Shown here: positions 14,362 to 38,713 of the stretch, in pieces | Numbering within the stretch: position 1 is the stretch's first letter | Layout: every line of letters begins with the position of its first letter | Origin: Verrucomicrobiota bacterium | GTDB lineage: Bacteria > Verrucomicrobiota > Verrucomicrobiia > JADLBR01 | Reading direction: 5' to 3' | Assembly: GCA_029560585.1 (NCBI GenBank) | Contig: JAKQKQ010000024.1 | Location: forward strand, 1 to 64,000 | DNA length: 64,000 nucleotides | Made by a program: the position numbers and the translations under genes | The notes under the pieces: generated by a model | Seen by the model: the letters and a program-made list of their open reading frames with translations, nothing else | Told to the model about the DNA's origin: nothing | The model's database searches: none

Positions 14362-14419
14362 GGCTGATCTGGGATTGTGCGTGGGATCAGGTTAGGTGTC
14401 GAGGCGATGGAATTCCGAG

Positions 14420-15850: not shown

Positions 15851-15882
15851 GGGGTTAACCTAATTGCTTCGATCTGAGGGTT

Positions 15883-15906
15883 TGTCATTGGTGATGGTGT
15901 CATTGG
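15883..15906 (-). promoter_or_regulatory. Direct repeat upstream of the isomerase-araB-araD operon
   Basis: On the gene strand the 9-mer CCAATGACA occurs twice with a 15-bp period, 33-56 bp before the isomerase start. The inner copy reads CACCAATGACAAAC, which resembles the motif before the second GH51 gene (CACCAATTTACGAAC) with one base missing. It may be a diverged site for the same regulator, but spacing and orientation differ. Confidence 0.35.
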
Positions 15907-15993
15907 ATGCGGCTGGATTTCGGCGGCGGGGGACCGTGCCCGGGCCGCTTCCTCGCGCGACCGGAGGTTCCGGGGCGGAATTGGCGGCACGCT

Positions 15994-18378: not shown

Positions 18379-18461
18379 CGCGGAGGGTGGCATCGGCGGT
18401 GGTGATGGGCTCGAGTGTGGCGCGGGCAATCCTGTCCGCGGCGATGGCTTCGGCATGCGTC

Positions 18462-18481
18462 GGCAGACTGGACTGTCTGCC
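18462..18481. repeat. Short perfect hairpin between GH51 and GH127 genes
   Basis: GGCAGAC and GTCTGCC form a 7-bp perfect stem with a 6-nt loop in the 197-bp gap between the two arabinosidase genes. No T-run follows on either strand. It may be a REP-type element or a transcript-stabilising hairpin. Confidence 0.4.
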
Positions 18482-18575
18482 TCACCGAGCTCAGGTGATC
18501 CTAGAGTTCGCCGTGTATCCGCTTGTGGGCGCGGATGGCGACGTCGATGGGATTGCCAGCCTGTTTCCAGATCGG

Positions 18576-20216: not shown

Positions 20217-20252
20217 CGCCAATTTGCGCAGAAAGTTCACCTTTTTGCGAAC
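20217..20252 (-). promoter_or_regulatory. Tandem operator-like motif upstream of first GH51 gene
   Basis: Read on the gene strand, GTTCGCAAAAAGGTG (20252-20238) and CTGCGCAAATTGGCG (20231-20217) are two copies of one 15-bp motif, 21 bp apart start to start. That is two helical turns, as is common for AraC-family regulators. The same pair at the same spacing occurs upstream of the second GH51 gene (32819-32854). Confidence 0.7.
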
Positions 20253-20470
20253 GGGTGCAGGCGATCGGCCGCGCGGGCACCCGGGTTAGATGCGGTGGTC
20301 CGCGCGGCGTCCAGCGGCACTCGCCCGCTGGGATACGATGTTACCGCGAGCTGGGATATCGGACTGGAGCGCCCGCCCTGCGATCGCGATCACCGCGTGT
20401 TGTTTCTGGCTGGCCCCGCCTCTGGCGCGCGGACGCGCCGCATCATTCATGGGGAAACTTGACACCCGAT

Positions 20471-20523
20471 GCCGCCTGATACAGGCGGCCTACAAGACTT
20501 GTGGGGCGTCTCTGCGAGACGCC
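20471..20523. repeat. Triple-hairpin intergenic repeat, copy B
   Basis: This is the second copy of the 53-bp unit seen at 1-53, in the same orientation, with stems GCCGCCTG/CAGGCGGC, CTACAA/TTGTGG (one G-T pair) and GGCGTC/GACGCC. It lies 22 bp beyond the stop codon of the large minus-strand gene at 20545-24474. The remaining intergenic DNA from 20139 to 20544 shows no gene. Confidence 0.8.
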
Positions 20524-20544
20524 AAACGCGTGCGAAGTTTCAGA

Positions 20545-23500
20545 CTAGAAGCGCCTGCGGAGGCGCTCCCAGAGGGATCGTGGCTCGGGGTGGACCTGGG
20601 CGTGCCAGAGATAGCGGGCGCCAGATGGTAGGGGTTGGGTGATCGGATGCGTGTATTGGTGCAGGGTGGCGGCGACCGCGACGGGCACGACGACATCCGG
20701 ATTCGGATTGAAGCCGCCGACGCGCCACAGGTAGCCCCAGCCGCCGAGCCGATAGCCCCCGATAAAGCCGTTTGACGCACTGGCGACCAGAACGGTGGCA
20801 GGTGCGGACTCCGTAGAGGGGACGCCGCGGTTCACGGCGCTCAGGCTCTTTTCGATCTTTGCGGCGAGCGTCTCGCCCAGCCAGGCGCGACCGGTTTCGG
20901 TCGCGTGGAGTGGTTCTGCGGGGGCATTGACCTCGCCGTCGCCGACCGGGATGGTCAGGGCAGCGGCGCCGGCGGGACCGCAGTGGTCGATCTTCCAGCC
21001 GCTATCCGCTCGGTGCACTGGCTGATAGAACGGGTAGGCGGCTGTCTCCCACCACGAACCACCATTGTTGACGTATGATCGGATCGCGTCGAGGGTCTCG
21101 CGCCAGCGTCCGGCATCTGGCGCAGGGATGAATTCGCCGTAGGGGTTGATAATCGCGAACCATGACTGCGGGCCGGCGGCGAGGGCGGCGGTGATGTCTT
21201 GGTACCGGGACAGGGTCCTCACGGCCACGCCGTGCTGTTTTGCCAGCGCCGAAGCCTCGAACGCGGCGTGCCAGTCGGCGGGGCGGATCGCAGTTGAGGC
21301 GGGTGAGATGCCTGGGCCCAGGTCGATGATGCCGATGGCCGGTTTCGGACCGGGCCAGTCGTGCGGGGCAAGATCCTTGATACTTGGCGGAGGGAGAACG
21401 CGGGGCTTTTCATCGTGCGCCGGGAGAGCGAGGGTGACATGGCTGTCGGCGACGTCCGTAATGATGGGCTGAGCGCCATCCAGGATGACGCGCACGCGAC
21501 CGGAGAAGGGCGACGGCACCGCGACGCTGCATAGCGATGGCGCATAGACCCAGACATCGGCTTTGACTTTGGCGGTTTCGGTGACGAACGCCGTCCGCGA
21601 GGGTGAGCCATCGGCGTTAGTGCCAGCGAGAAGTCCGGCGCTCATTCCCGGCGATGACGCGTGGAAGCCGAAGGGTGCGAGGGCGTGGGCATCGACCGTG
21701 CGCGGCACGGGGCCGAGGTTGGCGACGATGCGCACGGGGCCGTAGGTCGCGCGAATCACGCCGTCGTCATCTTCGCGACGTGGATCGCCACCCGCCGCGA
21801 AAAGCGGTGCGCGGTCGTGGCTGAAATCGGCGAGCGGTTCGCCGATGTAGCGGGCGCAGACCGACTTTTGGAGACGATCGAGCCATGCGAGCCATTCGCG
21901 GGGGACGTCCTGGGCGAGACCGGCGGCGGCAAGCCGATAGCTGAGGCTGTAACCGAGGCCGAGCGACCACGACAGGACTTGATCGTTCGTGATGAACTGG
22001 CCTAGGTCGTGGTGGAGCAGGACGGTCTTGTCGTGCGCGATGGCCTGGGCGAGGGGGAAGATCGTCCATGTCTCGGGCGGGTATTGGGCCTTGAACAGGC
22101 GCACCCAACTGGGCCGGTGCTCTGTCGGGACGATGCCCCAGGACATGCCGCAGAGGAGCGCCTCGTAATTGGCGACGCGATCCCATCCGTTCTCAGTGCC
22201 GAGCGGGACGGTGCGGCTATCCTCATCCACCATGGCGATCATGCCCTCGCTATAAGCGTAGGGGGTGGGTGACGCGGGGTTGGTGTCGTAGAGCCAAGAG
22301 CGCGCGCCGCACTGGTCCTGGAAGAGGATGTCCACCGGATACTCCTGCGTGAACTGGCGGACGGTGAGCCGGTTGGCGGCCTGGACGGCCGGGTGCCAGA
22401 GGGTGATGGTCCAGCCGTCGTTCTTCTCATATCTCTCGTAGTGTGGTTTGCCCTCGAGTGTCTTGAGGAGTGGGGCGTCGCCCTCGCGCTCGAAAGTGGG
22501 GCCTTTGGGGTGGTCGCACCACCACGTCGGGTTTGTGTAGGGGCTGATCAGATGGCCGAGGGCGTGTGCGCGATCGAAGAAGGCGCGGAACTCCTCTGGT
22601 GTGCCGAAGTCAGGTTTGGGCGGGAGATGGTCGGGGTATTCTTTATCGAAACCGCCGCGCAGGTAATCGGCAAAGTGGATGAGGGTGGGCACGGGCAGGC
22701 GGTCGAGGGCGGAGACTTTGTCAGGACACGGACCGACGAGATAGACGAGCACGGAGCGCCTGAGGCGGGCGAGGGTGTCGGGCTTGAGTTTGGCGGCGAG
22801 CGCGCGGGTGAGGCCATTGGCGGCGCAGTAGCGCGCGAGATCGTCGTAGACGGGCGTGCCGAGGGTCATGCGAACGGGGGGGGGTCGCCAGGTCTCGCCG
22901 GGGCGGACGTAGGTGCCGTACGCGTGGTCGCAGTAGCCACCGTGTTCATCGCCGCCGCAGCGGAGCGAGCCCGGGATGAAGATGGCGTCGTGTTGGCTGG
23001 CGGCGTTCCAGGGCTGTTTGACGGTGCGCGGCTGGATGCGGTACAGCGCGGCGGTGCCGGCGCTGGCTTCGAGGTGCAGGAAGTCTGAGAACGCCACGGG
23101 GTAGGCGGTCTCATAGGAGAGATAGCGCAGGGGGCGAAGCACTTGATGGAAAGGATAGCCGCCAACCTCGAACCAATTGCCGCCAGCTTTAACATAGGCG
23201 CGGATTGAATCGATCACATCGGGAAGGCCAGCGTCACTGTCGGCGGGAATCCCTTCGCCATATGGGTTGAGGATGCAAAGGAAGTCCGATTGACGAGCGG
23301 CGGCGAGCATCGCCTGCGGGGATGCGAGTTCGGTGAACGTCACGCGCCCGCGAGAGCGCGCCGCGATCGCGCCGAGGCGAGCGCGCCAGTCGGCAATGGG
23401 GACTTCGGCCCAGTTGCCGCGCTCGGGTCCACTCGTGAGGCTCACGAGGCCGATCCGGGCGCGTCCGTTGGGTGCCGTGGCGGCGAGCCTGTCGACGGTG

Positions 23501-24474
23501 GCCGAGACGAGGGTCAGAGCGGTGGCAACATCGTCTTTGCCCACGCCGCCACCGATTCGCCACAGGTATCCGTTTCCGCCAAGGTGATTGCCTGAAAAAT
23601 AGGGACCGTTGGGAGAGTCGATCAAGATCGTGTCGGCCTGCGCGCGCGTGGGCGGTCGATTGACGACGGCCTTGGCGGCCACGATGCGGGAGGCGACGGC
23701 GGGAGGCAGCCAGCGGCGGCCGTCGTCTGTGATCGTGAGGTTGACGGGAGGGTCATGGGTGGGGCGCTGATCGAGCGGGCCGCCATACAGGGCCCTGTAG
23801 CCGCCGGGGCCTACAGTCGCGGGCATCCAGCCGGACGGGCGATCATTGGGCTGCGGCTCGAAGAACTTGCGGTTAAATGCGGCGCCGACGCCGACACCGC
23901 CGTTGTGGGGCATGACGAATCGTGTGACCGAATCGGGCGCGAAGCGGAGGCGGCCCGGCAGGTCGATACGAAGGAGCGGTTGGGAGGCGGGGGTGATTTC
24001 GGCAGCGAGCTCAATGCCGTCGGGCTTCGGGCGAGCAGTGATGCGGACGGTGAGCGCGGACGAGATGTACGTGAGCGCCAGGGAGTTCGTGTCTGGTCCG
24101 GGTTTCCACGAGAATGCGTTCACCGCGTTCGTGGCATGGAAGCGGGCAGCATCAAGGACGGCGCCGTCAGCGAAACGGGCGGCCCAAAGGCCGGATTCGC
24201 CGCTCTGCCAGACCGAGCTGGTGGTGCCCTTGGGCGTGACCGCGAGGATGGAGCCGTTGGCCGTTCTGAAGCGAACTTCGCCGGAAGGGGAGGACAGCGT
24301 GACGGCGCCATCGTGGGGTTCGATAGCGGCGTGGCAGGCGGGTGCCGTAAGAATGACGGCCAAACAGAAAAGGGCAGTCGCGCGTGAGAAGTTGGGTCTT
24401 TCTGCTCGAGGGCCGAAAACCGTCCACGCGAGCAATCTGCCTACGGGTCTAACGGCCGGGACGATGCCAATCAT
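20545..24474 (-). CDS. Very large secreted putative glycoside hydrolase with mirrored duplicated modules
   Basis: This 1309-residue protein has a hydrophobic signal segment near residues 33-49 (ALFCLAVILTAPACHAA). The middle (about residues 600-880) looks like a TIM-barrel glycosidase-like core (GHLISPYTNPTWWCDHP, DILFQDQCGARSW, VPLGTENGWDRV), similar to DUF6259-type putative glycosidases. Two modules occur twice. Module 1 (LGGNGYLWRIGG near 296; LGGWGYLWRVGG near 1244) and module 2 (ILNPYGEGIP near 399; IINPYGEFIP near 1107) flank the core in mirror order. Function and substrate are unknown; the neighbourhood suggests polysaccharide breakdown. It is divergent from the heparinase-like gene, 48 bp away. 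The family call is tentative; the duplication is directly visible. Confidence 0.7.
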   Translation of the reverse strand: MIGIVPAVRPVGRLLAWTVFGPRAERPNFSRATALFCLAVILTAPACHAAIEPHDGAVTLSSPSGEVRFRTANGSILAVTPKGTTSSVWQSGESGLWAARFADGAVLDAARFHATNAVNAFSWKPGPDTNSLALTYISSALTVRITARPKPDGIELAAEITPASQPLLRIDLPGRLRFAPDSVTRFVMPHNGGVGVGAAFNRKFFEPQPNDRPSGWMPATVGPGGYRALYGGPLDQRPTHDPPVNLTITDDGRRWLPPAVASRIVAAKAVVNRPPTRAQADTILIDSPNGPYFSGNHLGGNGYLWRIGGGVGKDDVATALTLVSATVDRLAATAPNGRARIGLVSLTSGPERGNWAEVPIADWRARLGAIAARSRGRVTFTELASPQAMLAAARQSDFLCILNPYGEGIPADSDAGLPDVIDSIRAYVKAGGNWFEVGGYPFHQVLRPLRYLSYETAYPVAFSDFLHLEASAGTAALYRIQPRTVKQPWNAASQHDAIFIPGSLRCGGDEHGGYCDHAYGTYVRPGETWRPPPVRMTLGTPVYDDLARYCAANGLTRALAAKLKPDTLARLRRSVLVYLVGPCPDKVSALDRLPVPTLIHFADYLRGGFDKEYPDHLPPKPDFGTPEEFRAFFDRAHALGHLISPYTNPTWWCDHPKGPTFEREGDAPLLKTLEGKPHYERYEKNDGWTITLWHPAVQAANRLTVRQFTQEYPVDILFQDQCGARSWLYDTNPASPTPYAYSEGMIAMVDEDSRTVPLGTENGWDRVANYEALLCGMSWGIVPTEHRPSWVRLFKAQYPPETWTIFPLAQAIAHDKTVLLHHDLGQFITNDQVLSWSLGLGYSLSYRLAAAGLAQDVPREWLAWLDRLQKSVCARYIGEPLADFSHDRAPLFAAGGDPRREDDDGVIRATYGPVRIVANLGPVPRTVDAHALAPFGFHASSPGMSAGLLAGTNADGSPSRTAFVTETAKVKADVWVYAPSLCSVAVPSPFSGRVRVILDGAQPIITDVADSHVTLALPAHDEKPRVLPPPSIKDLAPHDWPGPKPAIGIIDLGPGISPASTAIRPADWHAAFEASALAKQHGVAVRTLSRYQDITAALAAGPQSWFAIINPYGEFIPAPDAGRWRETLDAIRSYVNNGGSWWETAAYPFYQPVHRADSGWKIDHCGPAGAAALTIPVGDGEVNAPAEPLHATETGRAWLGETLAAKIEKSLSAVNRGVPSTESAPATVLVASASNGFIGGYRLGGWGYLWRVGGFNPNPDVVVPVAVAATLHQYTHPITQPLPSGARYLWHAQVHPEPRSLWERLRRRF

Positions 24475-24522
24475 GGAAAGAGGGTATTGTGGTGATTTGG
24501 GCTCGGCAATAGCCTACCGGCC

Positions 24523-27500
24523 ATGGGCAGTAGCATTGTGAAGCATTTCCATGTGTCCATGAGACCATTGGTGACGAGCGTTTGCCTTGCCCTGTTTGTG
24601 ATAACGCCGATCGCTTGGGTTAGCCTGGGCGCGGCCCACGGGGGTCCAGCATCCGCGAAGCCATCGCCCCTGGTGGTTTGGGATTGCGAGGCCGCGGCGG
24701 CCATTCCGGGGGTTCAGGTGACAACCGCCGATGCGAAGTCCGGCAACGGGGCGGTCGTTTGGCGCAATCATCCGGCACACCCAGCGCTCTCGGTGCCGAA
24801 CGTTCCGAAGGATTGGACGGGGTACCACGAATTGCGCTATTGGCTCTACAGCGCCAAGGCCGTTCCGGCTCGCGTGACAGTGATCATCTCTTCGGAGAAT
24901 CCGGCCACCAAGGGTGAGGACTACTGGGGCTACACCATCGCGTTGAACTTTGTGGGCTGGAAACAGATCGTCCTTCCGGTAGGTGGACCGGGAGGCACTC
25001 GTTCGCCCAGGGGCTGGGACAACGTCGACGGGATCACGCTCACGGCCGCGGGCTGGGGCAACACACCGCACCCGGAAGCGGATCTGCGGCTGGATCAATT
25101 TGAGCTGGTGGTCAATCCGCCTCGGCCGGGGCCCGGGATCGACGACGCGGAGTTCTTCGCCCAACTGGATCTTTCGCGTCCCGATCTCGCGGCGGTGAAG
25201 GAAGCGGTTGGACGCGCCGACATGCGCGCGGCCAAGGAGGCCATGTTGCGACACATGCGCGATCGGGCGACACCGAAGTGGTGGTTCGACTGGCGCGAGC
25301 GGCCGAGCGGGACGGTGCCCGTGAAAGGCGGGAGCGAGGGCTGGGACTACTTCGGCACGGCGATCACGATTAACTTCGAGGGCTGGAAGCAATTCACGAT
25401 TCCGTTGAGCCAGTTCAAGCCATCGCGAAAACCCATCGGATGGCAGCATATCAACAAACTTTCGTTCAGCGCGACCTATGGTGATCGGAAACCCAAGCCC
25501 GACACGCGCCTTGCCTTCGATGATATCCGACTGGAGGGTGCGGCGCCCCAAGGCCTCGGCGATTTCGAGGCATCATTCGCCTTCGACGCATGGCGCGGGC
25601 TGGTCCCGCTCAGTGGGGTTGCGAAGTCCGGCAAACAATCCGGTCTCTGGACGAATCCGGCCGGTGGCGTCGCCTGCGAGGCGGTCCCCAGAGACTGGAC
25701 GCCGTGGGCGGCGCTGAGCTTCTGGCTTTGGTCGGGAAAGGCCACCGGGGACCGGATCACGATCATCTGCGAATCGGAAACGCCCGATGTCCGGGCCGCC
25801 GAAAACGTCTGCCGCCATATTCATGGCGGATTCTTCGTTGGGGAGCGGATCAACTGGCAGGCGAACAAGCTGCCGCCGACCGAGCCGGCCTTTACCCGCG
25901 AGTGGACGTATGGCCTCAACCGTTTCCCCGATTGGAATGCGCTCGGCGATGCCTACTGGCGGACGGGGGACGAGAAGTACGCGAAGGAGTGGATCGCGCA
26001 GATGCGCTCATGGATCGAGGACAATCCCTTGCCCCGTTATTCCACCGGCAACGAAACCCTGACGTGGCGAACGATCGAGGCCGGTATTCGCACATCCGGA
26101 ACGTGGCCGGACGCCTTGTGCCGTTTCCTGGGTTCGCCCTCGCTCACCGCCGATGATCTGGTGACTTTTCTGAAGTCCTGGATCGAGCACGCGCGGCACC
26201 TGATGCGCATCACGGTGGAGCATCCAGAACACGAGGGCAACTGGGTGACGATGGAATGCAATGGCCTGGGGCACCTCGGCATCCTGTTGCCCGAGTGCCG
26301 CGATGCCGCACTGTGGCGGAAGACCGCGATCGATCGTCTGAGCGCCGAGCTTGATCGCCAGGTCTATCCCGATGGGGCGCAGAAAGAACTCACGACCGGC
26401 TACCATCAGGTTTCGCTCAGGAATTTCGTCGGCCTCTTGCGCCTGGCGCACCTCAATGCGGTGGACATGCCGCCGCAGTACCAGCGGCTGCTGGAGCGCA
26501 TGTATGATTACAACCTTCGCGTCATGACGCCGGAGGGCTTCCTCCCGCCGCTCAACGACGCCGGACCGACGGCCGTGATGGAATCGCTCCGCGAGGGGGC
26601 GGGGCTTTTCGGCAGGGAGGATTTTCTGTGGGCCGCGACCCGGGGTGTGGAGGGGCGCCGTCCCGAAGCCACTTCGGTTGCGCTCCCATACGCCGGGTGG
26701 TACGTCATGCGATCGGGGTGGGGGACCGAGGACAAATACCTCCATTTCGAGGCCGGGCCGTACGGGATCGGCCACCAGCACGAGGACAAGCTCACGCTAT
26801 TCATCTGGGCGCTCGGCCGCACGCTCCTGACGGAAGGGGGCGTTTACTCATACGACCAGAGCAAGTGGCGCCGGCATGTGCTGGGCACGTGGTCGCACAA
26901 CACCATTATTGTCGATGGCCAAGAACAACACCGCAGGGGGCTTAAGGAAACGTACGAGACTGCCGCGCCCTGCAGAAACCTGTGGGTCACCACGCCTGAA
27001 TTCGATGCCGCCGATGGTGCGTACGACCGCGGCTATGGTCCGAAGCACGAGGTCAAGATGGTCCACCACCGGACGGTCGTGTTTGTGAAACCGGACTACT
27101 GGGTTGTCGTCGATAGGCTCGAGGGAGCCGGGAAACACGACTACGACATTCTCTGGCATCTTGATAGCAACGACGCCGACCGTGATCCGGAGACTGGCGC
27201 GGCGTGGGGCACCGAGCCACGGGCCGCGAATTTGCAGGTGACTCCCGCGCCAAATCCCGCGCTGACCTTGGAGATCGTCAAGGGTCGCGAGGATCCCGTG
27301 CTCGGGTGGGGGCTGGTTGCCCGTCGGCAGCCGCGGCCTTGTCTCGATTATAAGGTTCGGGCAGAGGGCCCCGTCACGCTCGCCTGGGCCCTGACTCCGT
27401 TTCGTGATTCTCGACCCGCCGTCGCCATTCGGTGCATCGCGGAACGCGGATCGGACGTGGTGACCGTAACCGGCCCTTGGGGTGTGGACACCCTTCGGTT

Positions 27501-27552
27501 CGGGCCGCTGGGCGAGCCGGACCGCGTTCGCGTTGCCCGGGCGCCAAAGTGA
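24523..27552 (+). CDS. Secreted heparinase II/III-family polysaccharide lyase with inserted binding module
   Basis: The 1009-residue protein has a signal peptide; an alternative Met at 24559 gives a more typical one. Residues about 48-200 are a carbohydrate-binding-like beta-sandwich. The alpha-helical lyase domain begins near residue 205 (YVKEAVGRADMRAAKEAML-type helix, then PKWWFDWRERP), is interrupted at about 262-425, then resumes (AENVCRHIHGGFF). The C-terminal beta domain carries the catalytic segments GIGHQHEDKLT and WRRHVLGTWSHNTI. Role: probable uronic-acid polysaccharide lyase acting outside the cytoplasm. The inserted segment is a second binding module whose two halves are in swapped order. 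It is divergent from the large protein at 20545-24474. Confidence 0.85.
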   Translation: MGSSIVKHFHVSMRPLVTSVCLALFVITPIAWVSLGAAHGGPASAKPSPLVVWDCEAAAAIPGVQVTTADAKSGNGAVVWRNHPAHPALSVPNVPKDWTGYHELRYWLYSAKAVPARVTVIISSENPATKGEDYWGYTIALNFVGWKQIVLPVGGPGGTRSPRGWDNVDGITLTAAGWGNTPHPEADLRLDQFELVVNPPRPGPGIDDAEFFAQLDLSRPDLAAVKEAVGRADMRAAKEAMLRHMRDRATPKWWFDWRERPSGTVPVKGGSEGWDYFGTAITINFEGWKQFTIPLSQFKPSRKPIGWQHINKLSFSATYGDRKPKPDTRLAFDDIRLEGAAPQGLGDFEASFAFDAWRGLVPLSGVAKSGKQSGLWTNPAGGVACEAVPRDWTPWAALSFWLWSGKATGDRITIICESETPDVRAAENVCRHIHGGFFVGERINWQANKLPPTEPAFTREWTYGLNRFPDWNALGDAYWRTGDEKYAKEWIAQMRSWIEDNPLPRYSTGNETLTWRTIEAGIRTSGTWPDALCRFLGSPSLTADDLVTFLKSWIEHARHLMRITVEHPEHEGNWVTMECNGLGHLGILLPECRDAALWRKTAIDRLSAELDRQVYPDGAQKELTTGYHQVSLRNFVGLLRLAHLNAVDMPPQYQRLLERMYDYNLRVMTPEGFLPPLNDAGPTAVMESLREGAGLFGREDFLWAATRGVEGRRPEATSVALPYAGWYVMRSGWGTEDKYLHFEAGPYGIGHQHEDKLTLFIWALGRTLLTEGGVYSYDQSKWRRHVLGTWSHNTIIVDGQEQHRRGLKETYETAAPCRNLWVTTPEFDAADGAYDRGYGPKHEVKMVHHRTVVFVKPDYWVVVDRLEGAGKHDYDILWHLDSNDADRDPETGAAWGTEPRAANLQVTPAPNPALTLEIVKGREDPVLGWGLVARRQPRPCLDYKVRAEGPVTLAWALTPFRDSRPAVAIRCIAERGSDVVTVTGPWGVDTLRFGPLGEPDRVRVARAPK

Positions 27553-27560
27553 GGGACGAA

Positions 27561-27588
27561 AAACGCATGCGAGAAGGCTCGCGCGTTT
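27561..27588 (-). terminator. Putative intrinsic terminator of the methyltransferase gene
   Basis: The stem AAACGC/GCGTTT with inner CGAG/CTCG lies between two convergent genes. Read on the minus strand, a run of T residues (TTTTTC) follows the stem, 34 bp past the methyltransferase stop codon. Confidence 0.45.
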
Positions 27589-27621
27589 CACGGGCGGGAT
27601 TTCGGAGCGAGTGCCGCGCCG

Positions 27622-28488: not shown

Positions 28489-28527
28489 GGCGCATGGGGT
28501 GCCGGGAAGACGCGCGCTGGAGGACAT

Positions 28528-30168: not shown

Positions 30169-30259
30169 AGCGTGTACGGTGGATACAGGAGGCGGGGGCA
30201 AAAGGCAATTCTGGATGGGTGGCAGGTCCTGGCCGCCCATCCTCGTTTAGGCGTTTGGA

Positions 30260-30282
30260 ACCATGAGCCCCTGACTCATGGT
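30260..30282 (-). terminator. Hairpin overlapping the second GH51 stop codon
   Basis: ACCATGAG and CTCATGGT form an 8-bp perfect stem with a 7-nt loop; the TGA stop is inside the stem. There is no T-run, so this may be a 3' stability hairpin rather than an intrinsic terminator. Confidence 0.35.
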
Positions 30283-32783
30283 GTGAGCCGGAGGATGGTC
30301 AGGGAGTTGGCGGGGAGGGCATGGGAAAAAGAGGGACCGGGGATGTCGACTGTGGATTCGACGGGCACGATCTTGCGGGGTTCGCCGAGGGAGTTTTCGG
30401 CCTCTGGGTCGGGGTGTGCCAGGGTTGAGACCTTCGCGGTCTTGCCGATGGTGCCGATGCCCGTGATGTTTATCTGGGCGGTCTGCGGTTTGGCGGCGGC
30501 GTTGACGGCTTTGAGGATGATTTCGCCAGAGTCTGTTCTTCCGGCGCCGGCGTAAAGTGAGGGCAGTGGGCGGCGAGTGACTTCGTGGATGAGCTGGCCG
30601 TCGAGGAAGCATCTGATGCGGGGGCCGTCGAGTTCGACGCGGATGTCATACCAGCGCCCTGTCTCAATGGTGCCGGGGACGCGTGGGGCATCGACGCCGT
30701 GGACCTCGAGACCGTGCTGTTTGTTGCCCCAGCCGCCGAGATTCCACCAATTCTTGGCGTTGTCCTTTTGGGTCTGGAACAGGATGAGGAAACCCTCGGC
30801 CCCGGAGATCTTCCGCGCCTTGAGGGAGAGGGTGTAATCGCGCCACGTGTTATCGCCGATGAGGGCGCGCGCGCCGCGGTCAGGTCCCAATTGGCGCAGG
30901 ATGCCCTCGGCGACGGACCACGTGCCGCCTTTTGTCCGCCATGCTCCCAGGCCCTTGGAGAAATTGCTTTCGAAGAGGGTCTTTCCGTTTCGCGTGACGC
31001 GGATGTCTTTGAATTCGGTTTGGGTGGCCCACGTGCCGACGCCAGCGGCACCGCCGGGCCCTGGGAGTTCAAGGTTCGGGGATGTGGATTCGCATGCGAG
31101 AATGACGTCGGGGCGGTTGTTCGCGAACATCTTCTGGGCGTAGTAGCTGGCGCGGCCGAAGGAGCGGGCGTTGTCGAAACCGATGAGGTTGACGGGCCAC
31201 CTGCGGTCGTTGACGTTGTAGAATAGTGGCGCGTAGCTGGCCATGATCACGTAATCGCTATTGCGCTCCATGCCGAGCATGAATGCGGATTCTGCGAGTG
31301 CGGCGAGGAGGTTGCCGGCGCCGACATCGCGGTTGACGGCGTATTCTCCGACGTAGACTTTCGGCGGGGACTCGGGGCCGGGGCGCGCGTCGTAGCGATG
31401 AAAATTCTCAAAGAAGAAGGATGGCGCGACATAGAAATGCTGGTCGTGGACATCGGCACCGGCCAGGCCGACGTCGCAGATGAGGGTGATCTGGGGCCAT
31501 CTGTCCTTCAGCGCCCTTGCGAAGAGGCGGTAATAGGTCTCATAGCGGGGGCCGAAATTCTCGTTGCCGACCTCGAGATACTTTAAAGGGAATGGGGCGG
31601 GATGGCCGTTCTTGGCGCGCTCGGCGCCCCATTTCGAGTCGGCTGGGCCGAGGGCATATTCGACGGCATCGCACGTGTCCTGGATCAGCTCATGGATGCG
31701 GTCCTCGGGCCAGAAGTCGCCGTTGCGGCCGGTGCAGGACAGCCCGCAGTTGACGACGTACATGCCCTGTGCGCCGATGTCCTCGCAGAGCTGGAGGAAC
31801 TCGTGATAGCCGAGCCCGTCGATATTCCGATAGCCCCATAGGCTCCAGTGGCCGGGGCGTGCGGCGATGTCACCGATGGTTTCCTTCCAGCGATAGCGGT
31901 TCTCCATGGTGGCGCCCTCGACGACGCATCCTCCGGGGAAGCGAAGGAAGGCGGGCCTGAGGTCCGCGAGGAGCTGGGCGAGGTCGGGGCGACAGCCGTT
32001 GCGACGATCCTTGAAAGTGTGGCGCGGGAACAACGAGACCGCGTCGAGGTCGAGTTGGCCAGCGGAGAGGGGTTTGAGGAAGAAGCGGGCTTGGGAATCG
32101 GTGGTGGTTGCGGTGAGCGTCGCTTCATACTTGTGCCACGCGTCCTTGGTGACGGGTGGGGTGGAGGATTTGGCGATGACCTGACCGTTGTGGTCCAAGA
32201 TGCCGATTTCGAGAGGGCCGGAGAAGCCTGCGGCGGCGCGAGCGCGGCACGAGAAGTCGTAATCAGCGCCGGCCTTGGCGCTGACGCCCCAGTAACCCTC
32301 ATTGAGAAGCCGTGGCGAGGCGCCGGTGGGGATCGTGAGGCGGAGGTATCGCACATTTTTGGGGTGGGCGGGTCGTTCGGACTCGAGGGACATTGCGGCG
32401 GGCGGGCCGTTGGTTTCGAGCGACCAGGCGGGCCACGGAGAGGGGAAGGTCCAGGGGACCGTGAAGTGCTTGGAGTTTCCGCTCACGTAGTCTGGTAAGT
32501 CCGGCGCCCGACACTCGGTGCCGTCGATCGTGCAGCCCTCGACGGGCAGTGTCTCCTCGAAGGAGCGATTCTGGATCATTTCCGCGTAGAGGCCGCCGTC
32601 GCCAGCGTGGTTAATCTCCTCGAAGAAAAGCCCCCAGAGGGTGGGGCTGACCGTCGCCCCGGGCCGATCGGCGCGGACGGTGATCTGGGTGGCTGGCGCG
32701 GCGGCGGCGGCGCCGTGGGCGAGCATCGCGACGGCGAAGGCGATCCGGTGAACGGCAAGGGAAAGTGTGCGGCGGGTCATCAA
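30276..32783 (-). CDS. Secreted multidomain GH51 alpha-L-arabinofuranosidase (second copy)
   Basis: The 835-residue protein starts with a signal peptide (RIAFAVAMLAHGAAAAA). An N-terminal carbohydrate-binding beta-sandwich (about residues 90-255) is inserted after the first barrel strand (LWGLFFEEINHAGDGGLYAE). The GH51 barrel has its acid/base Glu in VGNENFG near residue 406 and nucleophile Glu in YVGEYAVN near residue 480. A concanavalin-like domain (about 595-730, GRWYDIRVELDGPRIRCFLDG) is set into the C-terminal beta-sandwich. It is of the larger type acting on polymeric arabinoxylan or arabinan. Two copies of the 15-bp motif lie 36-71 bp upstream. Confidence 0.92.
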   Translation of the reverse strand: MMTRRTLSLAVHRIAFAVAMLAHGAAAAAPATQITVRADRPGATVSPTLWGLFFEEINHAGDGGLYAEMIQNRSFEETLPVEGCTIDGTECRAPDLPDYVSGNSKHFTVPWTFPSPWPAWSLETNGPPAAMSLESERPAHPKNVRYLRLTIPTGASPRLLNEGYWGVSAKAGADYDFSCRARAAAGFSGPLEIGILDHNGQVIAKSSTPPVTKDAWHKYEATLTATTTDSQARFFLKPLSAGQLDLDAVSLFPRHTFKDRRNGCRPDLAQLLADLRPAFLRFPGGCVVEGATMENRYRWKETIGDIAARPGHWSLWGYRNIDGLGYHEFLQLCEDIGAQGMYVVNCGLSCTGRNGDFWPEDRIHELIQDTCDAVEYALGPADSKWGAERAKNGHPAPFPLKYLEVGNENFGPRYETYYRLFARALKDRWPQITLICDVGLAGADVHDQHFYVAPSFFFENFHRYDARPGPESPPKVYVGEYAVNRDVGAGNLLAALAESAFMLGMERNSDYVIMASYAPLFYNVNDRRWPVNLIGFDNARSFGRASYYAQKMFANNRPDVILACESTSPNLELPGPGGAAGVGTWATQTEFKDIRVTRNGKTLFESNFSKGLGAWRTKGGTWSVAEGILRQLGPDRGARALIGDNTWRDYTLSLKARKISGAEGFLILFQTQKDNAKNWWNLGGWGNKQHGLEVHGVDAPRVPGTIETGRWYDIRVELDGPRIRCFLDGQLIHEVTRRPLPSLYAGAGRTDSGEIILKAVNAAAKPQTAQINITGIGTIGKTAKVSTLAHPDPEAENSLGEPRKIVPVESTVDIPGPSFSHALPANSLTILRLTP

Positions 32784-32818
32784 CCGGGACGCTAGGCATT
32801 GTCGCGTGGGGGCGGCAA

Positions 32819-32854
32819 CGCCAGATCGCGTACAAATATCACCAATTTACGAAC
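32819..32854 (-). promoter_or_regulatory. Tandem operator-like motif upstream of second GH51 gene
   Basis: Read on the gene strand, GTTCGTAAATTGGTG (32854-32840) and GTACGCGATCTGGCG (32833-32819) stand 21 bp apart. Both the motif and the spacing match the pair upstream of the first GH51 gene, and the match continues a few bases past the inner copy (GGCGTTG in both). This suggests one regulator binding both promoters. Confidence 0.7.
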
Positions 32855-32958
32855 AGATGAACGCACCCGGCTGCCACTCTCCTGCCCACGGCTGAGGGCC
32901 CAGAGCCAGTCTTCGGCAAGCGCAGGCCCAATGCGGCTGTGGCATCGGGCCCCCGCGT

Positions 32959-33185
32959 TAGCCCGGATATTCCACAGCCTGCCGGCTGTGAAATTCCGGG
33001 CTCTGGGAAAACCGCGCCATGAAAGCCATTTGTTGGGAAAGGTCAGGCAAAGACTGGGTTTTTTCGCGGTTGCGGAGTGTGTTTCGCGAACCGGTGGTCC
33101 CAGACCCTTCAAAGTCGCGTTCTTCGGAGCGCGGTTTTCCCTTGAGCCTGCATATTTCACGCGGAAGCGTGAAATATGCAGGTTA
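32959..33185 (-). repeat. 227-bp dispersed repeat with palindromic ends, copy 2 (inverted)
   Basis: This unit is the reverse complement of the repeat at 405-631 over its whole length, with scattered substitutions. The terminal hairpin at 33147-33182 is perfect here: CCTGCATATTTCACGC pairs with its full complement around a 4-nt loop. The other end (32960 to about 33002) has arms AGCCCGG/CCGGGCT. It lies just past the stop codon of the PPC-domain gene. The rest of 32784-33190 holds the GH51 operator region and no gene. Confidence 0.85.
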
Positions 33186-33190
33186 GGAGG

Positions 33191-35266
33191 TCAGTTCAGC
33201 TTTTTCTGGCGGCCGCTTCGCTTCTTGGTGTCGGCGCGGCCGAAGACAGACGCGCACATTTCTTGGGAAGGGACGAGATGGCGATACTCGAACGCCTGCA
33301 TGCGGTCGTCGGCGGGCACGGCGGCGCGGACGATTTCCTTGCCATCGATGTTGGCGCGGCCCTCGAACTCGATGCTTATCGGATTGGGGCTGGGCTTTTC
33401 GGGGGCGGTCAGGGTGAGTTTGACCTTGTCTTCCTTGGAGGGCACTTTGCCGTCGGTCAGGATGAAACCGGGCGGGGGATTCTTGAGCGAGACTGCGATC
33501 TCGCCGGTGAAACCATCCTTGCGCAGGGCATAGACGATGACGGGGATCTTCGAGCCGGCGCGCGCGTTGATGGTCGAGGGCACGGCACGCAGCGCGAAGT
33601 CGGGCATCGGGGGGCTGATCCGCAGGCGGTATCCGAATTCGGGGCCGCCCTTGTGTTGCGTGTCTCTGAGGTTCAGGAGGTAGGTGCCGTCCTTGGGGAG
33701 CGTGGCGATCAGGTAGGAGTCGGCATGGTGGGTGGTGAGGCCGGCGCCGCGGTCGGTGTTATCGTCATTGAACGCGATCTCCTTGCCGGCCGCGTCGGTG
33801 AGCTGCAGCGAGGAATCGAGGGGCGAATTGAGGCGACGGGCCATGACCTCGGCGACGATCTGCTGTCCTGCTTTGCCCTCGAACGAGAACGTGTCCGCGG
33901 TGTCCGGTTTGAGGATGCGGCCGTTGACAATGACGGGCGGCGTGACGCGCTGCGCGCGCGCAGGGCCTTGGGGGAGTTCCTGGTCGAGGCATTCCGGCAG
34001 GTTGTCCACGGAGAAGGGGACGAAGTTCGAGACGTGGCTATCTTTTCGGACGGAGATGGGGTAGGCCCCGGGGGCCTTATCTCTGTCGTCGACGACGATC
34101 CTGGTGGCCGGCAGGTTCCATCCGTTCAGGTCGACACCGGTCCGGGTCCCGGCGGGTCCGCCCAGCGGGAAGATGCTGGTGATGAAGGGTGTTTCGCCGA
34201 CCGTGATGCGATATACAAAATCCTCGCGGCCGCGGTAGATGGAGTCCTTGATCTCGATGGCGTACTCTCCATCAGCCGGAATCTGGTAGTGGACGACGGG
34301 GTCGGGGTTGAAGCGGAAATCGTCCGTGTAGGCGAGTTCCTTGCCGCTGGAATCGTAGAGGGAGAGGGTGGCCTGGAACCAGCCGGGGACGGCATCGGAG
34401 ATATAGGGGATCAGGTCGCGCGCGCTGACCGCGATGACGAGCTTCTGTCCCTTCCTGGCCGTGAAATGATAATGGTCCACCTCTCCTGGGAGGATCTGCC
34501 CGTTGATGATCCCGGGAAGGGAGACGTTCATGACAGACTTTGTCGTGGCTCCCTTTTTCTTGGGCGAGAAGGAGGTTTTGGCAATGGAACTGCGCTGCTC
34601 CGCGATATTTTTCGAGGCCGCCTCGGAGAACTCGGGCAGTTCGCCGACGTAAAACACGAGCGGATTCGAGAGGCCGGCGGTCGTGCCGATCCGGAGTTCG
34701 CGTCGGCCCGGGGTGGCATCGGGGGCGACCGTGAGCTGGCAGACGACGAGCTCGCAGATCGCGGGGTTGGCGGGGCGGCGGACGCCGGAGGACATCTTTT
34801 TCCTCGTCTCGGCCAGCAACTTTTCGTCGGCCGCCGTCCATGTCGCATTGGCGTATTTCTTTTTGAGTTCCTCTATCTCCTTGTCGTCGGTCGCGCTGCT
34901 CTTGATGTCCTTGGAGTTCTTGAAGCTCCTGAAGTTCTCCAGCGCCTTGAAGTTCTTCTGGACGACGGCCTTTCGGGCCAGCAGCTCATCGACTTGTATC
35001 CGGGCGTTGTTGAGTTCTTTGCCGCTGATGGGGTGGATAAAGTCGGTGACGGTGGCGGATACGCCGCCGCCCGAGACGTAGATGTTGGTGGCGCCGTTGA
35101 GGAACTGGCCGGCGATGACGTGTTCGGACGTCGTGCCCTGTTTGGCCCCTGCGGGATAGACGTAGCCGATGGAGAACGAGCGGCCCTGCTGTTGCGCCCA
35201 GGAGGTGGGCGCGAGCGCGAGGAGGGCCAAGAGGCCAAGGGGCAGATGGGATGAGCGAGGTTTCAT
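33191..35266 (-). CDS. Secreted PPC-domain protein of the DUF1549/DUF1501 operon
   Basis: The 691-residue protein has a signal peptide (LPLGLLALLALAPTSWA). Two pre-peptidase C-terminal-like beta domains can be seen, each with the pattern GQILPGEVDHYHFTARKGQ and GRILKPDTADTFSFEGKAGQ. A helical, lysine-rich stretch lies near residues 90-150. No catalytic motif is visible. In planctomycetes and verrucomicrobia such proteins often follow DUF1501 and DUF1549 genes and are presumed surface or periplasmic. The start is 1 bp past the DUF1501 stop codon, so coupling is likely. Confidence 0.78.
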   Translation of the reverse strand: MKPRSSHLPLGLLALLALAPTSWAQQQGRSFSIGYVYPAGAKQGTTSEHVIAGQFLNGATNIYVSGGGVSATVTDFIHPISGKELNNARIQVDELLARKAVVQKNFKALENFRSFKNSKDIKSSATDDKEIEELKKKYANATWTAADEKLLAETRKKMSSGVRRPANPAICELVVCQLTVAPDATPGRRELRIGTTAGLSNPLVFYVGELPEFSEAASKNIAEQRSSIAKTSFSPKKKGATTKSVMNVSLPGIINGQILPGEVDHYHFTARKGQKLVIAVSARDLIPYISDAVPGWFQATLSLYDSSGKELAYTDDFRFNPDPVVHYQIPADGEYAIEIKDSIYRGREDFVYRITVGETPFITSIFPLGGPAGTRTGVDLNGWNLPATRIVVDDRDKAPGAYPISVRKDSHVSNFVPFSVDNLPECLDQELPQGPARAQRVTPPVIVNGRILKPDTADTFSFEGKAGQQIVAEVMARRLNSPLDSSLQLTDAAGKEIAFNDDNTDRGAGLTTHHADSYLIATLPKDGTYLLNLRDTQHKGGPEFGYRLRISPPMPDFALRAVPSTINARAGSKIPVIVYALRKDGFTGEIAVSLKNPPPGFILTDGKVPSKEDKVKLTLTAPEKPSPNPISIEFEGRANIDGKEIVRAAVPADDRMQAFEYRHLVPSQEMCASVFGRADTKKRSGRQKKLN

Positions 35267-35267
35267 A

Positions 35268-36650
35268 TCACATGATCTCGGTCAGGCGGCCGCCTGATTT
35301 TACGGTGCCGTCGAGCGCGGGGAGGACCGCGACGTCGAGTCCCTGCGGGTGCGGCAATTTCGCGGCGCCGTCTATGCCGAGCAGATCGTAGATGCTTCCC
35401 ACGAGATCCACCGGATAGACGGGGCGTTCCTTGACCTCCTCGCCGGTTTCGGTGGAGGAGCCGACGACGTGGCCGCCCTTGAAGCCGCCGCCGGCGACGA
35501 CGTGCGAGAAGACCTTGCCGAAGTGGCCGCGCCCGCCATTCCACGGGGGTTCCCATTGGACCTTGGGCGTGCGGCCGAACTCGCCGCCCCACCAGACGAT
35601 GGTGCTTTCGAGGAGGCCGCGGTCGGCGAGGTCCTGCAGCAGGGTGGCCATGCCCTTGTCCAATTCGGGCAATTTGCGCGTCATGATCTGGAAGTGCCCC
35701 TTATGGGTGTCCCAGCCCTCGAAGTTGATCGTGACGTAGGGCACGCCGCGCTCGACCAGTCGCCGGGCCACGAGGCAGGATTGCCCAAACTTGTTGCGGC
35801 CGTAGCGCTCGCGGATCTCGGCCGATTCCTGGGTCACATCGAACACCTTGCCGGCGTCGCCGAGGATCAGGTCGTAGGCCTGCTTTTCGCACTGTGCGGC
35901 GGTGATGAGCTCTGGGTCGCGATCCATTGATTGGCCGATCGTGTTGAGTTTGCCCAGGAGGTCGCGACGGGTCTTCTGGCGCTCTTCGGTGATGCCCTGG
36001 GTGACGACGCCCTCGACGACGAACTTGCTCTGGGAGGGGTCGCCGCCGGTGGCGAAGGGCTTGGCGCGCGAGCCGAGGAAGCCGGCCTCGGCGAATCGGC
36101 CCTGGAGTTTCGTCATGACGATATAGGGTGGGATGAGGCCCTTGTAGCCCCCGGCGTAGCCCTTGAAGAGCGAAACGACGGCGCCGGCGGTGGGAAAGCT
36201 CTGTCCGTCTCCGGGCGTGTGCGCGGTCTGGACCATGTACGCGGCCGTCTCGTGGCCGTTGCTCCCATGGGTCATGCTTCGGATGATCGAGTACTTATCG
36301 GCCTGCTTGGCGAGTTCGGGCAACAGCTGGCCGATCTGGATGCCGTCCACGTTGGTCGGGATGGGTTTGTCCAGCGGCCCGCAGTAGTCTTTGCCCGCGC
36401 CCGGTTTGGGGTCGAAAGTATCGAGGTGGCATGGGCCGCCCCACATCCAGATCTGGATGACGGACTTGGCTTTCGCCTTGGGGTTGACCTGGGGAGCCTG
36501 AGGGGCGCCAAACGCGCGAACCGACCATGAGTCGGCCAGCAAGAGGGCGGCGGCCCCCTGGAGTCCACGCCCCAGCGCCTCGCGTCGGGTGATGCGGCTG
36601 GCGCGGCCGTCCGGGGCCACGCCTCTTGTGGGAATGTATGGGTTGTTCAC
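35268..36650 (-). CDS. DUF1501 domain-containing protein (sulfatase-like fold)
   Basis: The 460-residue protein has a Tat-like N-terminus (TRREALGRGLQGAAALLLA) and the DUF1501 hallmarks: IQIWMWGGPCHLDTFDPKPGAGK, MTHGSNGHETAAYMVQT, FEGWDTHKGHF and WWGGEFGRTPK. The family has an alkaline-phosphatase/sulfatase-like fold but its reaction is not established. It is the middle gene of a three-gene minus-strand operon, 29 bp after the DUF1549 gene and 1 bp before the PPC gene. Confidence 0.88.
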   Translation of the reverse strand: MNNPYIPTRGVAPDGRASRITRREALGRGLQGAAALLLADSWSVRAFGAPQAPQVNPKAKAKSVIQIWMWGGPCHLDTFDPKPGAGKDYCGPLDKPIPTNVDGIQIGQLLPELAKQADKYSIIRSMTHGSNGHETAAYMVQTAHTPGDGQSFPTAGAVVSLFKGYAGGYKGLIPPYIVMTKLQGRFAEAGFLGSRAKPFATGGDPSQSKFVVEGVVTQGITEERQKTRRDLLGKLNTIGQSMDRDPELITAAQCEKQAYDLILGDAGKVFDVTQESAEIRERYGRNKFGQSCLVARRLVERGVPYVTINFEGWDTHKGHFQIMTRKLPELDKGMATLLQDLADRGLLESTIVWWGGEFGRTPKVQWEPPWNGGRGHFGKVFSHVVAGGGFKGGHVVGSSTETGEEVKERPVYPVDLVGSIYDLLGIDGAAKLPHPQGLDVAVLPALDGTVKSGGRLTEIM

Positions 36651-36679
36651 CGTGATACCTCTCTCTTCTCGTCGTTCGT

Positions 36680-38506
36680 TCAGTGGCGATACAGGAACTC
36701 GGGGTTGTTGATCAGGGCCCAGGCGAGGTCAACCGCGACATCGTACCTGGAGGAACTGGTCTTGGCGTATTCGGCCACGGTCTCCAACTCCTTTGGCGTC
36801 GGGAACCGCGAAAGGATCGTGAGATAGAGGGCTTCCGCGAACTCCGCCGGTTTGGCTGCGCTGGGGGCGTCGTCCTCGGCGTCGCGTCCCCTGTTCGACG
36901 CTTTGGCGCCCTTTTCGGATCTGTCGCGCCTGTTGGGCCGGTCGGATTTAGAAAACTTGCGAGCCCGCGCGGGGTCGGCGGCCTGGAATAGGGTCCTTAG
37001 CTTGGGGCTGTTGACAATCTTGTCCTGGATGTGGCTGGAGTTCAGGAGATACAGCCGCTGGTCGGTCGTCGGGGCGCTGGCGCGCTCGGACTGCAGGCCC
37101 GTGTCGCGCGCGGGCCGTCCGAACATCTCGAGGAACGAGCTGGTGATGCTGGAGTCAGGCAGCGCGATGGATCGCTGGTCTTCGGGGATGAACGTGAAAG
37201 GTTCGGGGACGGGGCTGGAATACGTTTCCGTCGTGCCCGTGATCTGGTTGAGGGCATCGATGAGGACCTCCGCCTCCAGCCGCCGGAGGGGATAGCAGGC
37301 GAAATTGGCGCGGGCCTCGGGGGTATCCTTTTTCGGGACGGACGAGAGCTGATAGACCTGCGAATTCATGATGAGCCGCATGATGTGTTTCAGATCGTAT
37401 TTGTTGGCCGCGAGTTCCTTTTCGAGATAGTCCAGCAGCTCCGGGCTCACCGGCTTGTTGTCCGGCCGAATATCGTCCGGCTCGTGAATGATCCCGCGGC
37501 CCAGCAGCCACGCCCAGGTACGGTTGACGGCGGCTCGCGCAAACCAGGGATTCTTTGGCGTGATCAGCCAGTTGGCGAAGACGACGCGGGGGTCTTGGTC
37601 GGGCCCGATTCGGGCGGGCATCCCATCCGGGAAATTGGTCCTGATGGGTTCGGTGGGCGGGGGTGGGGCCGCGACGGTGATCGTTACATTAGTCGCGGGC
37701 TCGGCGGCCGTTTGGGGGGCGGCGTTGGTTGGCGCGTCTGGGTCCTTGCGGGAATCGAAAAAGACGATTTCCTCCTTCCATTCGCCTGTGGGCTTGTAGG
37801 TGATCTTGGAGAAGAACTCCGCCATTTCGGCCAATTTGTCTTTTGGCCATTTATCGGCGCGGGTACCCATGAAAGTGAGGGCGACGGCCTCGGCGACTCC
37901 GGTGGGAGTTTTGTTTTGGACGGCGCGGTAGAAGTTGACCTGGCCGACGCGGAAGTTGCTGCCGTTTGCGGTGAGCATTTCGCGCACGAACCGGTCGTAG
38001 GGCATGTTGTCGCGGATGCTGTCTCGGATCCACCGGTGATACGCCTGGGCCGCGTTTGGCCAGAGGTTAATTGGGAACTCCGCCCTGACGCGGAGCACGT
38101 CGCTCCACCTCATCGCCCAGTAATCCGCGAATTCGGGGCGATCGAGGAGTTGATCGATTAGGGCCGCGCGCTTGTCGTGGTTCTCGCTGCGCAAGAATTC
38201 CTCGGTCTCTTTGGCGGTGGGCAGGGTACCGATCACATCGAGGTACGCGCGGCGGACGAAGACGGCATCGGAGCATGGGTTGGCCGGTTGGATGTTAAGC
38301 CTCCTGAGATTTGCAAAGACGAACTGGTCGATTTTGCCCTTGGGCATCAGGGTCGCGTCGGCTTCATACGGATTCGCCGTGGCGGTCGCAAGATGAACGG
38401 CCAGAAGGATAAACGCTGTGGCACTGACGCGAAATCGCACTGGGAGCGCGCGCCGGGATACACGGCAACCTCTACGGTCGGCAGGGACCGGATTGAGCAA
38501 GCCCAT
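36680..38506 (-). CDS. DUF1549/DUF1553 domain-containing secreted protein
   Basis: The 608-residue protein has an N-terminal hydrophobic export segment (RVSATAFILLAVHLATATA). The DUF1549 part includes RRAYLDVIGTLPTAKE and DRPEFADYWAMRWSDVLRV, and the DUF1553 part includes NRTWAWLLGRGIIHEPDD and YPLRRLEAEVLIDALNQ. It lacks the N-terminal cytochrome (CxxCH) domain of many relatives, so it is the short form. A proline- and threonine-rich linker (about residues 260-300) joins the halves. It is the first gene of the operon and is divergent from the XylR-type regulator. The function of the family is unknown. Confidence 0.88.
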   Translation of the reverse strand: MGLLNPVPADRRGCRVSRRALPVRFRVSATAFILLAVHLATATANPYEADATLMPKGKIDQFVFANLRRLNIQPANPCSDAVFVRRAYLDVIGTLPTAKETEEFLRSENHDKRAALIDQLLDRPEFADYWAMRWSDVLRVRAEFPINLWPNAAQAYHRWIRDSIRDNMPYDRFVREMLTANGSNFRVGQVNFYRAVQNKTPTGVAEAVALTFMGTRADKWPKDKLAEMAEFFSKITYKPTGEWKEEIVFFDSRKDPDAPTNAAPQTAAEPATNVTITVAAPPPPTEPIRTNFPDGMPARIGPDQDPRVVFANWLITPKNPWFARAAVNRTWAWLLGRGIIHEPDDIRPDNKPVSPELLDYLEKELAANKYDLKHIMRLIMNSQVYQLSSVPKKDTPEARANFACYPLRRLEAEVLIDALNQITGTTETYSSPVPEPFTFIPEDQRSIALPDSSITSSFLEMFGRPARDTGLQSERASAPTTDQRLYLLNSSHIQDKIVNSPKLRTLFQAADPARARKFSKSDRPNRRDRSEKGAKASNRGRDAEDDAPSAAKPAEFAEALYLTILSRFPTPKELETVAEYAKTSSSRYDVAVDLAWALINNPEFLYRH

Positions 38507-38677
38507 ATTTATTAATCTAATCGCAATTTTCGGCTGGTTTAGGACATGGTCAAACAGAATCGGAGGTCTCGTGGGTCGCTGGGCAGGGCTTTGGGTTCGT
38601 TCGAATCGGGCCGCGTGCGGAATAAGGGGAATCTATGGCGTTCTTCAACGGGGTGCCGGCCAGATCGGGTGAGCGAA

Positions 38678-38713
38678 TTGCGTTTTGGTGAAAAGAATCG
38701 CCATTTTGCGAAT
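38678..38713 (-). promoter_or_regulatory. Operator-like motif upstream of the XylR-type regulator
   Basis: Read on the minus strand, ATTCGCAAAATGGCG (38713-38699) matches the motif upstream of both GH51 genes at most positions. A weaker copy, TTCACCAAAACGCA (38692-38679), follows about 20 bp later. The site is 19-54 bp before the regulator start, so autoregulation is plausible. The divergent DUF1549 gene starts 172 bp to the left. Confidence 0.6.

Follow-up and report, generated by a model that had tools for sequence, protein, structure and literature searches.

The stretch of DNA analysed here, hereafter the window (64,000 nucleotides of a Verrucomicrobiota bacterium, assembly GCA_029560585.1, contig JAKQKQ010000024.1, positions 1 to 64,000 of the forward strand), contains two GH51 α-L-arabinofuranosidase genes, each preceded by two direct copies of a short motif, and a XylR-type regulator gene accompanied by a single copy. 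A preliminary description, made from the letters of the window, had proposed that the shared motif joins these genes into one regulon. The features on which the argument depends are as follows:

18576..20138, minus strand: GH51-1, α-L-arabinofuranosidase; start set at the ATG at 20138, with a signal-peptide-like N-terminus (the mechanically called open reading frame starts at 20240)
20217..20251, minus strand: predicted tandem operator 1; two half-sites with a 21-bp period, 78 bases from the GH51-1 ATG at 20138
30276..32780, minus strand: GH51-2, α-L-arabinofuranosidase with ASD1 and Alpha-L-AF_C domains; start set at the ATG at 32780
32819..32853, minus strand: predicted tandem operator 2; two half-sites with a 21-bp period, 38 bases from the GH51-2 ATG at 32780
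38699..38712, minus strand: lone half-site, a perfect match, reading away from the regulator gene, with 19 bases to the regulator ATG; its 16-base core is the same in a second genome of the genus (G001, the congener)
38732..39895, plus strand: XylR-type regulator, comprising a LacI/periplasmic-binding-like sensor and an AraC-type double helix-turn-helix

The paired motif is probably the operator of the regulator encoded at 38732-39895, which would bind it as a dimer in an L-arabinose-dependent manner and recruit RNA polymerase, as far as can be judged from sequence. Both tandem sites lie exactly where the preliminary description had placed them, in gene-strand orientation and with the same 21-bp period, their letters being CG-framed (TTCGCAAAnTGGCG). 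The pattern TNCGYAAAWWGGYG-N7-TNCGYRNNNTGGYG, to whose definition the sites of GH51-1 and GH51-2 contributed, was searched with at most 3 mismatches across the entire genome (7.06 Mb, 336 contigs, 95.7% complete), giving only five tandem matches, four with 0 mismatches and one with 1. Neither the reversed pattern nor a spacer of 8 bases, one longer, gave a match in this genome. The three further sites lie on other contigs, upstream of genes encoding (i) a GH4 enzyme, (ii) a Gfo/Idh/MocA oxidoreductase, and (iii) a GH2-like protein. Matches are thus few and non-random, as a regulon would have it, with all five upstream of genes, four of which are glycoside hydrolases, including the two GH51 genes whose sites defined the pattern. 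The half-site alone is more common, with 141 matches at up to 2 mismatches versus 40 in the reversed control. The GH2-like target (L217, ~8494-9876; G000:C289, where G000 is the window's genome) seemingly comprises two open reading frames, which would mean a disrupted gene or a misassembly.

The regulator displays a two-domain organization, with PF13377 at residues 111-274 and PF12833 at residues 305-383. Among solved structures, E. coli XylR is its best relative over the full length (E 1.3e-48, residues 12-381) and also its top fold match (PDB code 4fe4), whereas the AraC model matches the DNA-binding part only (residues 274-384). The genome contains 13 more matches to the regulator (loci L002-L014), covering 245 to 381 residues; each of these paralogs presumably has its own operator, and eight of the 13 pair with a protein of the congener on the regulator tree.

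A weight matrix was built from 23 half-sites, 10 of the window's genome and 13 of eight relatives (L042, L043, L044, L046, L047, L048, L054, and L059). In 66 held-out loci (999,462 bases), a set that also omits L061, L077, and L096 even though none of them gave letters to the matrix, half-sites scoring 10 bits or more form ten pairs at a period of 21 and a single pair at each of 22, 39, 62, and 71, while the reversed control yields no half-site pair. Across 102 regulator loci, 21 of the 25 regulators with 49-64% identity to that of the window have a tandem site scoring 22 bits or more at a distance of up to 1.3 kb, 13 of these 21 loci having given no letters to the matrix, and none of the 74 regulators below 49% identity does. 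The remaining three loci, outside both counts, are those of the window's regulator and of the congener's (L041 and L026, the same protein), with a half-site only. The own-genome paralogs L002-L014 likewise have no tandem site within 1.3 kb (0/13; best score 12.8 bits).

Mapped onto a tree of 95 regulators, the presence of the site requires 4 changes, compared with a mean of 20.8 for shuffled labels, and none of the 13 own-genome paralogs belongs to the clade that bears it. L001 and L041 counted as site-bearing in this tree on account of sites located elsewhere in the respective genome, and matches too short for inclusion, L095 among them, were left off. Since shared ancestry inflates such counts, the separation and not a p-value carries the argument. 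Clade-typical residues, including H364, A366, and Y368, are conserved at 85% or more in 24 site-labelled regulators and at 35% or less in 72 others. These three residues map to a predicted helix (362-373), the recognition helix of the second helix-turn-helix, which is therein unlike that of the other XylR-type paralogs, a pattern that would fit a private operator and is not in itself proof of contact.

A sample of 286 genomes of the class comprises 14 with the regulator at E 1e-95. Outside the genus, 10 of 12 regulator genomes display the site within 1.5 kb of it, L228 and L230 being without. The expected conservation of the motif upstream of GH51 orthologs was borne out in part: within 1.5 kb, it is present in three of the seven genomes that have both the regulator and GH51, that of the window included, and in none of the 20 GH51 genomes where no regulator was found at E 1e-95. 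With just three of seven, the notion that the motif precedes all GH51 orthologs was rejected. Among the GH51 genomes lacking the regulator, L144 contains a 19.9-bit pair, below the threshold.

Most tandem sites keep a near-constant distance to promoter-like elements, the corresponding TTG and TANNNT columns not being part of the matrix. In 27 of the 37 distinct tandem sites, the second half-site runs straight into TTG, resembling a -35 box, and in 23 of the 37 TANNNT starts 22-24 bases on, with at most three at any other offset; the full TATAAT is found in five relatives (L042, L043, L044, L077, and L096). In the window, operator 1 is followed from the next base by the -35-like TTGTCC, with TACGGT 24 bases on, and operator 2 by TTGCCG, with TAGCGT 24 bases on. 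A fixed phase between site and -35 box characterizes class II activators, and the predicted promoters conform to it, with the site abutting the -35-like box in fixed phase. The weak -10 boxes of the window would, we infer, fit an activated promoter.

Operator 1 precedes seven same-strand genes, from GH51-1 through a GH78-like gene, and no gap between them exceeds 143 bases. The genes downstream of GH51-1 are, in the order of transcription:

15994..18579, minus strand: GH127 β-L-arabinofuranosidase, overlapping the end of GH51-1
14420..15850, minus strand: isomerase with a Fucose_iso_C domain, predicted L-arabinose isomerase in place of AraA
12688..14361, minus strand: ribulokinase AraB (TIGR01234, 588.4 bits; cut-off 583.25)
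11987..12688, minus strand: L-ribulose-5-phosphate 4-epimerase AraD (PRK08193, 320 bits, cut-off 257; under the TIGR00760 cut-off)
10066..11865, minus strand: sodium/solute symporter of the SSF family
7324..10038, minus strand: GH78-like α-L-rhamnosidase family protein, the last gene of the run

The stretch 10066-20138 is probably one operon behind operator 1, which would be read as a single transcript. It had been remarked that no clear copy precedes GH127, araD, or the symporter gene, and indeed none inside the cluster reaches 12 bits; copies are missing before GH127 and araD because the genes run head to tail behind the site at 20217-20251. An extra tandem site before the isomerase gene or araB of the window was sought and discarded on the same grounds, none scoring 12 bits or more. 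By way of the operon, araD and the symporter gene probably belong to the regulon as well, which corrects the preliminary description. Unlike the window, the congener displays a tandem site upstream of araB, found with the matrix.

The congener's pattern matches with 0, 1, and 3 mismatches precede GH127, a Gfo/Idh/MocA gene, and GH51-2, respectively, so that both members of the genus have a tandem site before a Gfo/Idh/MocA gene and before GH51-2. The Gfo/Idh/MocA oxidoreductases (G000:C135 and G001:C85) are similar to each other. In L211, GH127 begins 243 bases past the tandem site, with a short frame in between. Another match with 3 mismatches (G001:C197) was rejected as chance, L214 lacking a 20-bit pair and the reversed control giving 2 matches.

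Target calling was automatic, taking the longest open reading frame close to each site; for L077, L184, and L193, the search for isomerase relatives gave the identity. Over 40 distinct tandem sites, made up of the 37 and three later ones (L227, L229, and L231), the first gene is a pentose gene in 25, including GH51 (8), AraA (7), the Fucose_iso_C isomerase (6), and AraB, GH127, GH43, and XylA (1 each). The non-pentose first genes encode prepilin-like proteins (7), Gfo/Idh/MocA oxidoreductases (2), GH4, GH2-like, and GH16 enzymes (1 each), and 3 others. The sites thus precede AraA, GH51, GH127, AraB, and once XylA, and track the regulator clade, which supports the one-regulon interpretation. 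The control of xylAB that marks XylR proper is not apparent, no xylose gene occurring among the targets of the window and the congener and xylA at L062 only. In that locus (L062:5369-7184), the operator lies before a xylose isomerase gene, and what looks by eye like the start of a xylulokinase gene lies across the regulator; a switch of effector under a kept operator is possible.

The prepilin-like targets occur at L049, L053, L057, L060, L079 (directly after the regulator), L227, and L231, all seven with the N_methyl motif and two with DUF1559, which suggests sugar-induced surface pseudopilins. Near regulators in general, prepilin motifs were seen in 12 of 101 loci, with about 7 motifs expected, and are not clearly above background.

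The arabinose pathway of the cluster differs at its isomerase. Since the window's genome and the congener gave no match to AraA (PF02610), the Fucose_iso_C isomerase likely replaces it in the conversion of L-arabinose to L-ribulose. Its sequence matches PF02952 only and not PF02610, and a sequence comparison with the PDB gave no convincing match. Its predicted model (predicted local distance difference test, pLDDT, 90) shares the fold of arabinose isomerase (Foldseek E 6e-24); L-arabinose isomerases take the first 32 places among its fold matches (template-modelling score 0.73-0.80, 11-15% identity), ahead of L-fucose isomerases. E304, D328, H344, H447, and H448, which we take to be catalytic by analogy with AraA and FucI, are invariant across 28 aligned relatives. 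Some close relatives carry the NCBI name 'L-fucose/L-arabinose isomerase family protein'; the family is not new, and its role here is what is predicted.

In the class, AraA occurs in 68 of 286 genomes and relatives of the cluster isomerase in 41, comprising (i) 21 genomes at 59% identity or more, 2 of them with AraA; (ii) 14 genomes at 50-53%, 12 of them with AraA; and (iii) a further 6 genomes at 36-41%. In the first group, the site lies directly before the isomerase gene in 6 of 21 loci and before araB or a GH51 gene of the same run in 4, with no site seen within ~1.5 kb in the other 11; in the second, it was found in none of the 9 loci examined out of 14. AraA or an isomerase of the first group is present in all 14 regulator genomes (the isomerase alone in 8, AraA alone in 4, both in 2) versus 73 of the 272 others, with a Fisher p of 2.7e-8 that ignores shared ancestry.

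The region before the regulator gene deviates from the other sites. The preliminary description had reported a good copy and a weak second one there; the former holds as a strong half-site of 21.4 bits, and the latter does not, scoring -3.8 bits at a period of 20, where its letters had been read, and -10.3 bits at 21. A second half-site was rejected altogether, all periods from 15 to 30 giving at most 1.6 bits and the best opposite-strand match 4.1 bits. The region upstream of the congener's regulator has no tandem site (best 5.8 bits), and in the alignment of both upstream regions the half-site core is identical at 16/16 positions, while elsewhere 119 of 275 window positions match. The half-site at 38699-38712 is predicted to be an autoregulatory or relic site. 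On the minus strand, at 33194-38506, genes encoding PSCyt2/PSD1, DUF1501, and PPC-domain proteins head away from the regulator; as the half-site is oriented toward them, they could also be its targets.

The proposed mechanism builds on observed features of the motif, namely its letters, period, rarity, position relative to the -35- and -10-like boxes, orientation to the target, and travel with the regulator clade; from these we infer that the regulator is the binder, that binding activates, and that L-arabinose is the effector, the last from the targets only. In the presence of L-arabinose, a regulator dimer would occupy two half-sites 21 bp apart and recruit RNA polymerase to the promoter whose -35 box abuts the motif. 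The regulon would comprise the GH51-1-headed cluster (GH51, GH127, isomerase, ribulokinase, AraD, and symporter), GH51-2, and the unlinked GH4, GH2-like, and Gfo/Idh/MocA genes, and the lone half-site might confer weak autoregulation.

Several observations weigh against this interpretation. The regulators of the window and of the congener have no adjoining tandem site; the -10 boxes of the window (TACGGT and TAGCGT) are poor matches; and four of the seven genomes holding the regulator and a GH51-1 ortholog have no site within 1.5 kb of GH51. The 22-bit threshold was chosen after the scores had been seen, with L095 (48.9% identity, 21.4 bits) and L033 (39%, 19.9 bits) close to it, and L055, L056, L061, and L063 (the last cut by the contig end), as well as L228 and L230, lack a 22-bit site; conversely, G031 has the site before the isomerase, with no regulator found there at E 1e-95. 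Because the loci were for the most part retrieved by way of regulators, isomerases, and GH51 genes, the target tally is biased to those neighbourhoods, and the six accepted non-defining whole-genome matches precede two arabinofuranosidase genes (GH127 and GH51-2), GH4, GH2-like, and two Gfo/Idh/MocA genes, the last four targets having no proven tie to arabinose. The reversed control of the congener yields 2 matches, and its 3-mismatch matches are therefore weak on their own. Finally, the site before xylose isomerase at L062 implies that the effector may vary.

Other readings of the motif were considered against the same evidence. That it is chance or a generic promoter element with no dedicated regulator could be argued from the abundance of single half-sites, yet tandem copies are rare and track one protein clade, and this reading is extremely improbable. 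Binding by another XylR-type paralog of the genome, for which the 13 further matches and the lone half-site beside the window's regulator speak, is very unlikely, as L002-L014 reach at best 12.8 bits within 1.3 kb and lie outside the site-bearing clade, compared with 22-bit sites at 21 of the 25 regulators of 49-64% identity.

The sugar and the sign of regulation leave somewhat more room. If the regulator sensed D-xylose, like E. coli XylR, its best full-length solved relative, arabinose genes would be co-induced through arabinoxylan breakdown, and the L062 site before xylose isomerase, with the xylulokinase-like gene opposite, would be accounted for. We regard this as unlikely, as sites precede AraA seven times, the AraA-like isomerase six times, and AraB once, versus XylA once; all 14 regulator genomes of the class have an arabinose isomerase candidate; and the ribulokinase and AraD of the cluster serve arabinose use. 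In this genus, L-arabinose is more likely than xylose to be the sugar. A sugar-relieved repressor is also an unlikely reading, if one with a small share of the probability: a site abutting the -35 box could block the polymerase, and a half-site 19 bases before the regulator ATG suits self-repression, but the fixed phase to the -35 box is that of class II activators. Moreover, E. coli XylR and Vibrio XylRA are termed activators in the Vibrio report (PMC12125979). Activation by the window's regulator in response to L-arabinose remains the preferred interpretation.

More broadly, and with the odds slightly against so wide a claim, Verrucomicrobiota and some Planctomycetota might possess their own class of arabinose regulator, with XylR architecture and a private operator and recognition helix, in which a fixed operator stands over swapped enzymes (AraA, the AraA-like isomerase, and once XylA) and also drives prepilin-like surface proteins, linking sugar sensing to polysaccharide capture. 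The regulon itself would provide an operator-level handle on sugar control in the phylum, and the operator would serve as a functional label, giving genes under it, among them those of the prepilin-like proteins and the Fucose_iso_C isomerase, a role open to testing that goes beyond their family names. Literature searches in an openly licensed library, at the level of titles and abstract openings, brought up neither an arabinose regulon of Verrucomicrobiota or Planctomycetota nor the replacement of AraA by such an isomerase.

Compared with known systems, the arrangement combines elements of several. At E. coli araBAD, AraC uses the half-sites I1 and I2, spaced by 21 bp, of which the one nearer the promoter lies at the -35 box. 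The window's predicted operators resemble them in tandem half-sites with a 21-bp period at a -35-like box and in their arabinose catabolism targets; unlike AraC, the regulator comprises a LacI-type sensor, the likeness being confined to the DNA-binding part. With E. coli XylR (PDB codes 4fe4 and 4fe7), on the other hand, it shares a full-length match, the top fold, and the combination of a LacI-type sensor and an AraC-type DNA-binding domain. Vibrio XylRA, a close XylR relative, is reported to be a xylose-responsive activator whose motif comprises two AT-rich direct repeats (PMC12125979). Paired direct repeats occur here too, and sugar-dependent activation would be a further likeness, whereas the predicted operator here is CG-framed, and the targets, unlike those of XylR and XylRA, are mainly arabinose genes. 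The arabinose regulators named in PMC4666351 comprise AraC, the GntR/LacI AraR, a repressor in B. subtilis, and the NrtR-family AraR. The AraR proteins of Bacillus (GntR/LacI) and Bacteroides (NrtR/Nudix) likewise control L-arabinose use, and the Bacillus sensor is also LacI-like (PDB code 3tb6, among the fold matches of the regulator), but the DNA-binding domains of both derive from other families. Overall, the regulon is judged to be real and its kind a known one, and what sets it apart is a XylR architecture that would serve arabinose genes through its own operator.

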